This document shows positions 8,188 to 11,208 of a DNA stretch of 64,000 bases, one piece after another (positions within the stretch are counted from its first letter, which is position 1; every line of letters starts with the position of its first letter). The translations under genes were made by a program, and so were the position numbers. Source of the stretch: Caryophanales bacterium (lineage in GTDB: Bacteria > Bacillota > Bacilli > JARBTR01); the NCBI GenBank assembly GCA_029240105.1, contig JARBTR010000002.1:1-64000 (forward strand), read 5' to 3'. The notes beneath the pieces were generated by a model that was given only the letters and a program-made list of their open reading frames with translations, was not told the origin of the DNA and ran no database searches.

Positions 8188-8221
8188 AAAGCCAGTTTCA
8201 TTTATAAATGGACTGGCTTTT
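8188..8221 (+). terminator. rho-independent terminator after yqzL
   Basis: AAAGCCAGT pairs with ACTGGCTTT around a second stem (TTCATT/AATGGA, with one mismatch) and a TATA loop, ending in TTTT. It sits just ahead of recO. Confidence 0.75.
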
Positions 8222-8229
8222 ATTAAAAT

Positions 8230-9009
8230 GTGGTGTATGTTTTGATTGGTAAATGCGAAGGAATTGTTATAAGAAATGTTGATTATGGTGAGACATCAAA
8301 AATAGTGACTATTTATACGAAAGAATTAGGTAAAATTTCATTAATGGCTAGAGGTGCAAAGAAACCTGTCAGTAAATTATCTGGAATTACTCAGTTATTA
8401 CAACAAGGCTATTTTTTGTTTCATGCCGGAAATGGAATGGGTACTCTTCAACAAGGAGAATCAATTCGTGGTTTCCGTAATATTCTAGAGGATATCTACT
8501 TAACTTCCTATGCAACGTTTATGTCTGAACTTTTAGATCGAACAACAGAAGAGAAACAAAAAAATACTTTTTTGTTTGAACTATTTGAAAGGTTACTTGA
8601 ATATTTAAACGATGGCTATGATCCAGAAATCATTTTAAATATTTTTGAATTAAAAATTTTATCCCTTTTAGGAATTGCACCGGAGTTGAGTCGATGTGTT
8701 AATTGTGGACACATCGATGGAAACTTTATGTTTTCTACAAAAGAAGGGGGAATCATTTGCCACCGCTGTATTGATCAGGATCGCTATGCACTCCCTATTT
8801 CAGTAGGTGCTGCTAAAATAATGAGGATGTTGTATCTCATCGATGTCAACCGCTTGGGTAACATTTCTATCTCAGAACAAACGAAACATGAAATACGTGA
8901 ATTAATCGACCAATATTATGAAAAAAATTCAGGTTTATATTTAAAATCAAAGAAATTTCTAAAACAAATGGAAAGTATGAAATTAGTACTCCCAATGAAA
9001 AAGGATTAA
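8230..9009 (+). CDS. recO: DNA repair protein RecO
   Basis: 259 residues from the GUG at 8230. The N-terminal OB fold begins GKCEGIVIRNVDYGETSKIVT. A zinc-finger-like segment (CVNCGHIDGNF, then CHRC) lies near 155-185. RecO helps load RecA on SSB-coated single-stranded DNA in the RecFOR pathway. The start is uncertain: UUG at 8242 would give the usual family N-terminus and no strong ribosome site favours either. Confidence 0.92.
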   Translation: MVYVLIGKCEGIVIRNVDYGETSKIVTIYTKELGKISLMARGAKKPVSKLSGITQLLQQGYFLFHAGNGMGTLQQGESIRGFRNILEDIYLTSYATFMSELLDRTTEEKQKNTFLFELFERLLEYLNDGYDPEIILNIFELKILSLLGIAPELSRCVNCGHIDGNFMFSTKEGGIICHRCIDQDRYALPISVGAAKIMRMLYLIDVNRLGNISISEQTKHEIRELIDQYYEKNSGLYLKSKKFLKQMESMKLVLPMKKD

Positions 9010-9692: not shown

Positions 9693-9711
9693 CTTTTTAA
9701 TTAGATATTTA

Positions 9712-9885
9712 CGATGATTGGAAAGAGTAATTGTTCTCAATGAAATAAGCGAATCTGGGATAGTGCAAGCCAGAGTTTCTAGAAACAATGAAGGAGTCCA
9801 TGAGTAAAACTTACAAAGTGGTTATGTGATGGTTTGTCATATAACAATTAGGGTGGAACCGCGGGTAAACTTAACACTCGTCCCT
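9712..9885 (+). promoter_or_regulatory. glycine T-box riboswitch (truncated at the terminator)
   Basis: Stem I is closed by ATTGGA/TCCAT. Its lower internal loop has AAGAGTAA on the 5' side and TGAAGGAG on the 3' side; the latter gives a GGA glycine codon at 9793-9795 as specifier. Stem III is TTATGTGA/TCATATAA (9822-9843, one mismatch). The T-box core AGGGTGGAACCGCGG is at 9850-9864, and the base after TGG is A, which pairs with the U discriminator of tRNA-Gly. ACTCGTCCCT (9876-9885) is the 5' arm of the usual terminator. Its 3' arm and T-run are missing, and coding sequence begins at once. Confidence 0.9.
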
Positions 9886-11208
9886 ATGCAAAAGATTTAC
9901 GGCGGATTGGCAAATGCTTGGGACTACGGTCCATTAGGCGTAGAACTAAAAAACAATGTAAAAAAAGCATGGTGGAAAAAATTTATACAAGAGTCACCTT
10001 ACAATGTGGGGTTAGATGCGGCGATTCTGATGAACCCGCGAGTTTGGGAAGCTTCTGGTCATATCGGAAACTTTAATGATCCTATGATTGATTGTAAAGA
10101 GTGTAAATCACGCCATCGAGCTGATAAATTAATCGAAAATGCTCTTAATGAAAAAGGGATTGAAGTATTTGTTGATGGAATGCCTTTCTCTAAAATGGAA
10201 GAGTTAATTTCAGTCCATAATATTGTTTGTCCTGATTGTGGGAAACGTAATTATACTGAAATTCGCCAGTTCAACTTAATGTTTAAAACATTCATTGGTA
10301 CTACTGAAAGCAACACGAACCAAGTTTATTTACGTCCAGAAACTGCGCAAGGAATTTTTGTAAATTTTAAAAATGTACAGAGAACGATGCGAAAGAAGTT
10401 ACCGTTTGGTATTGGACAGATCGGTAAAAGTTTCCGTAATGAGATCACTCCAGGAAACTTTATTTTCCGTACCCGTGAATTTGAACAAATGGAACTTGAA
10501 TTTTTCTGTAAACCTGGGGATGAACTAGAATGGTTTGCTCAGTGGAAAAAAACAGTAAATGAATTCTTACTGTCACTTGGTATGAAATCGGAGAATTTAC
10601 GCGCTCGTGATCATGATGAAGATGAACTATCACATTACAGTAATGCAACAGTGGATTTTGAATACAAGTTTCCATTTGGTTGGGGAGAACTTTGGGGTAT
10701 CGCTTCTCGTACGGATTATGATTTAAAGCAACATATGGCTTTTTCAGGTGAAGATTTCAATTACCAGGAACCTGAGTCAAATGTCAAATACATTCCGTAT
10801 TGCATCGAGCCATCTGTTGGTGTTGATCGTATGCTTTTGGCATATTTATGTGATGCTTATGATGAAGAGGAATTAGAAGATGGCACATCTCGTACAGTCA
10901 TGCGCTTCCATCCAGCATTAGCGCCTGTGAAAGCAGCTATTTTACCACTTTCAAAAAAATTAGCAGAAGGTGCAACAGAAGTGTTCTCAGGTTTATCGAA
11001 TCATTTTACAGTTGATTATGATGATGCGGGGTCAATCGGAAAACGTTACCGACGTCATGATGAAATCGGTACACCATACTGTGTCACTTACGACTTCGAC
11101 TCAGTAGAAGATAAAATGGTGACCGTTCGTGATAGAGATACAATGGAGCAAACGAGAGTTGCTATCGCTGACCTTGTTTCTTTCTTAGAAAATAAAATGA
11201 AATTCTAG
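9886..11208 (+). CDS. glyS: glycyl-tRNA synthetase, single-chain type, apparently missing its 5' end
   Basis: Class II synthetase of the alpha2 type found in Staphylococcus, Mycoplasma and archaea, unlike the glyQS pair of B. subtilis. From the AUG at 9886 the protein is 440 residues: [21 protein letters not shown] near the start, then [42 protein letters not shown] and the anticodon-binding tail [20 protein letters not shown]. Family members carry about 24 more residues (the RGFVFP segment) before IYGG; these are absent. The AUG has no ribosome site and lies in the T-box terminator arm. The frame stays open to a GUG at 9826, but that would translate the T-box itself. Either a real deletion, a pseudogene, or an assembly collapse. 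Confidence 0.85.

Follow-up and report, generated by a model that had tools for sequence, protein, structure and literature searches.

Probable drop-out of a short segment between a glycine T-box leader and glyS in a draft Caryophanales genome

In the stretch of draft genome analysed here (the window, 64,000 nt; Caryophanales bacterium, contig JARBTR010000002.1), the first arm of the terminator hairpin of a glycine T-box leader directly abuts, in the assembled letters, the reading frame of glyS, the gene for a single-chain glycine--tRNA ligase (GlyRS). We consider it highly probable that this gap is an error of sequencing, amplification or gap joining, and that the locus consists of an ordinary T-box followed by an ordinary glyS. 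A drop-out is favoured because four other genes on the same contig (C8) have lost 65-85 nt, because glyS is otherwise perfect, and because no other GlyRS was found. The initial annotation of this DNA had left three options standing side by side, namely a pseudogene created by deletion, a translation start within the leader, and a collapse in assembly; of these, an assembly error is now favoured, while the other two are less well supported.

The leader itself is complete up to the break. It matches the T-box family RF00230 over model positions 1-219, scoring 92.8 bits where the gathering score is 93, and it is because of this 0.2-bit shortfall that a default scan leaves 9705-9888 without a T-box. 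Stem I with a GGA specifier (9793-9795), stem III, the core AGGGTGGAACCGCGG (9850-9864) and an antiterminator with a folding energy of -9.8 kcal/mol are all present, so that the initial description of a T-box with GGA specifier, stem III, core and first terminator arm holds. The competing intrinsic terminator and T-run expected of a transcriptional RF00230 T-box are missing; a genome-wide search allowing up to one mismatch gave no second site for GCATAGGGACGAG, the complement of the terminator arm CTCGTCCCTATGC. The locus shares its leader, with the type of specifier, the core and the first terminator arm, as well as its single-chain GlyRS, with the Bacillales arrangement of glycine T-box and glyS seen in Bacillus marasmi (NZ_LR656165.1) and Anoxybacillus mongoliensis, but both of these (L023 and L024, respectively) also carry the second terminator arm and its T-run, a ribosome site, an ATG and the N-terminal segment, all of which are missing from the locus in the window.

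The size of the gap follows from comparison with homologous glyS loci, which were collected from whole genomes and GTDB contigs. Where a T-box core can be recognised before glyS in a relative, it is followed in turn by the terminator, its T-run, a ribosome site, an ATG, some 21-30 codons and the residues IYGG. The distance from core to IYGG is 44 nt in the window versus 152-579 nt (median 177) in 50 T-box glyS relatives; therefore at least 108 nt are absent, most likely about 130, within a span of about 110-140. Conserved GlyRS coding resumes at 9895; gone at the junction are the 3' arm of the terminator with its T-run, the ribosome site, the start codon and a run of about 21-25 codons that ends in RGFxFPGSE, much as had been proposed from the letters alone (terminator arm, ribosome site and about 20 N-terminal codons gone). 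In B. marasmi the same arm is followed by its partner CTCGTCCCTATGCTTACAAGCATAGGG, so that in the window the sequence breaks off where the expected terminator hairpin would have its tip. Pattern and complement searches found neither the partner arm nor the segment coding for RGFxFPGSE elsewhere in the assembly. A misplaced copy of the segment was looked for and not found; the pattern RGFxFPG gave two one-mismatch matches, one in a tig/clpX-like region (contig C14) and the other reading SGFVLPG (contig C12).

Beyond the junction, glyS matches the GlyRS model NF003211 with 670.6 bits (cut-off 312, E 1.1e-201), and both PF00587 and PF03129 are found in its product, which has a catalytic core and an anticodon-binding domain. 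The NF003211 match begins only at profile position 16, and the complete N-terminus of a single-chain GlyRS is lacking. Every one of 94 homologues has the residues R, G, G and S in the RGFxFPGSE stretch, which are absent from the window GlyRS; in the remainder of that protein all 166 of 166 near-invariant positions are kept. With 440 codons open and every near-invariant position retained, the gene does not have the look of a decaying pseudogene. A second glyS or glyQS elsewhere, on which the pseudogene option leaned, did not come to light; the assembly (2.48 Mb in 15 contigs) holds one single-chain GlyRS, and neither GlyQ (PF02091) nor GlyS-beta (PF02092) was found in it, although this lack is not proof because the assembly is scored as only 84.9% complete.

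The whole of C8 (442 kb) and roughly 1.2 Mb of the relative G048 were read, and 116 conserved genes were compared. Besides glyS, four conserved genes each lack coding sequence amounting to about 65-85 nt, in two cases with a frameshift (Table 1), and these are similar losses elsewhere of the kind looked for as a sign of assembly or library drop-out. The breaks fall near C8 positions 134900 (YitT-type protein), 252500 (solute-binding protein), 317170 (permease) and 399400 (KtrB/TrkH). The residues lost from the solute-binding protein are present in 19 of 19 homologues read. The conserved loop lost from the KtrB/TrkH transporter is present at 17 of 19 homologous loci, the other two having been missed by the search expression, and this loss is probably another drop-out. 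Judged against relatives at 40-60% identity, the four losses could nevertheless include true deletions. No premature stops or small frameshifts were found among the 116 genes. A reverse control (102 own genes against the relative's DNA) gave three genes with gaps of 14-38 residues, located in poorly aligning stretches, and one place with extra sequence in the relative and a change of frame.

Table 1. Features of the glyS locus and the other genes on contig C8 with missing coding sequence (window positions unless marked C8; corresponding locus coordinates in brackets)
Feature	Position	Strand	Basis or remark
Glycine T-box leader	9705..9888	+	RF00230 full-length match, 92.8 bits, E 5e-21
Open frame reaching upstream from glyS into leader, with GTG 9826 and ATG 9829	9826..9885	+	ORF list
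5' arm of expected terminator hairpin, CTCGTCCCTATGC	9877-9889	+	3' partner arm and T-run absent
Deletion junction, terminator-hairpin loop joined to codon before IYGG	9889..9895	+	50 T-box glyS loci compared
glyS, single-chain glycine--tRNA ligase, 440 codons left, without N-terminal segment ending RGFxFPGSE	9886..11208	+	NF003211
YitT-type membrane protein	C8:134816-135476 (L172:10816-11476)	minus	22 residues (~80 nt) lost, frameshift
Family 5 solute-binding protein	C8:251534-253048 (L178:7534-9048)	minus	26 residues lost in frame
Nucleoside-type ABC permease	C8:316937-317802 (L181:12937-13802)	minus	23 residues (~67 nt) lost, frameshift
KtrB/TrkH potassium transporter	C8:398476-399738 (L185:14476-15738)		24 residues lost in frame, including conserved MFIGxxxGSTGGGIK loop

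Such drop-outs are not pervasive, since about 20 conserved genes of the window match curated models end to end, which rules out general damage to the window, and since the genes behind the 20 other T-boxes of the genome start normally. The latter, detected with the same model, belong to the same leader class as the T-box of glyS but, unlike it, have a normal spacer and a normal downstream gene start; by their reading frames the downstream genes were named trpS, tyrS, serS, valS, ileS, hisS, leuS, alaS, thrS, argS and others. Among these 20, a weak terminator 3' arm was seen only at argS (C8:205185-205374; L120:1657-1740), where the arm is short and the terminator very weak (-2.8 kcal/mol). We dropped this as a second lost terminator arm; the argS terminator of a relative (L144) is weak too, so the weakness may be natural. 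Repeats rich in hairpins and related to one another (AAGTTTGTCTGAGC..AGCTCAGGAACAAAC and the like) occur between T-box terminator and ribosome site in several aminoacyl-tRNA synthetase leaders (L108, L111, L118, L122, L123), and are perhaps small mobile repeats. Around 8200-8260 of the window, recO is without a strong ribosome site, and its start is probably a TTG or GTG just past the terminator that closes a small yqzL-like gene. The neighbourhood of glyS differs in the nearest compared genomes (G048 and G011), and gene order is uninformative.

If glyS is affected by a drop-out, about 110-140 nt, from the terminator 3' arm and T-run through the ribosome site and start codon to the first 21-25 or so codons, would have been lost from the draft as one of several such losses of 65-140 nt on C8, and the DNA of the cell itself would be intact at this point. 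A possible origin would be a small gap in coverage at the strong hairpin that was bridged where a few bases happened to match, a mechanism made plausible by the position of the break at the hairpin tip. The join resembles short-deletion or chimera artefacts of draft genomes, in which segments are joined with loss between them and few bases shared (PMC1855051). Chimeras from multiple-displacement amplification are inverted in 85% of cases, and direct joins of less than 10 kb are rare among them (11 of 475; PMC1855051); amplification alone is therefore not an obvious cause, and we do not claim it as the sole one.

The alternative that fares best, though we think it unlikely, is a true and recent deletion, by which this copy of glyS would be dead or dying, with a second GlyRS encoded in the roughly 15% of the genome that is not assembled, or which only part of the population would carry. 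The clean junction is compatible with such an event, a completeness of 84.9% could hide a second GlyRS gene, and the other losses on C8 could be real deletions in a decaying genome. However, a genome that decays by mutation is expected to accumulate stop codons and frameshifts of one or two bases, and none was seen in the 116 genes compared on C8; glyS is likewise undecayed apart from the missing segment, unlike what ordinary pseudogene formation would leave, and the assembly yielded no second GlyRS, GlyQ or GlyS-beta. What the contig shows is confined to clean losses of 65-140 nt, some shifting the frame and some not, and one of them falls in an essential single-copy gene without any other flaw; this pattern fits drop-out in sequencing, amplification or gap joining rather than mutational decay.

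Very improbable in our view is a working fusion, in which translation from GTG 9826, ATG 9829 or an ATG at 9886-9888 would yield a GlyRS whose N-terminus is replaced or shortened. The frame is indeed open from 9808 through the junction. According to the initial annotation, the only in-frame starts lie inside the T-box; this is true of the GTG and ATG in the leader, but it overlooked the ATG at 9886-9888, which sits exactly at the junction, inside the terminator arm. The absence of a ribosome site, also noted at that time, stands: ATG 9886 has no Shine-Dalgarno sequence, its best pairing to 16S rRNA being -0.6 kcal/mol versus about -6 to -12 for neighbouring genes, and the stretch AAAGTGG, upstream of GTG 9826 and ATG 9829, has a weak pairing to the 16S tail of -4.9 to -5.6 kcal/mol, while about one quarter of random positions reach -4.8 kcal/mol. 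In the alignment to RF00230, moreover, AAAGTGG is the conserved T-box stretch preceding stem III, and the upstream frame is probably unused as a start of glyS translation. The residues that it encodes are unlike the RGFxFPGSE segment, in which four positions are invariant, and at face value none of the three starts gives the conserved GlyRS N-terminus. The arrangement occurs in none of the 50 T-box glyS relatives, and a search of titles and abstracts in the literature found nothing relevant on T-box/coding fusions or N-terminal truncation of GlyRS.

Least probable of all is the strong form of this idea, a genuine fusion in which translation of a GlyRS with a remodelled N-terminus would begin at a start codon supplied by the antiterminator region, and tRNA binding by the leader would act directly on its initiation. 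As the letters stand, such a leader could form only the antiterminator, and termination control would therefore be lost. The suggestion, made when the junction was first noticed, that tRNA control and protein start are fused finds no support, given the lack of a ribosome site, of a second genome with the arrangement and of the invariant residues. Were it true, such a fusion would represent a new coupling of tRNA sensing to the synthetase, but nothing that we found supports it.

The arrangement of glyS in the window is thus most likely an artefact and not new biology. In the cell, the leader would be expected to terminate transcription when tRNA-Gly is charged, and to let transcription continue into a normal glyS when the tRNA is uncharged. 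The case also calls for caution, in that clean losses of 65-140 nt in a draft genome can mimic gene fusions or pseudogenes, and become visible only through a comparison of many conserved genes of the contig with their counterparts in relatives.
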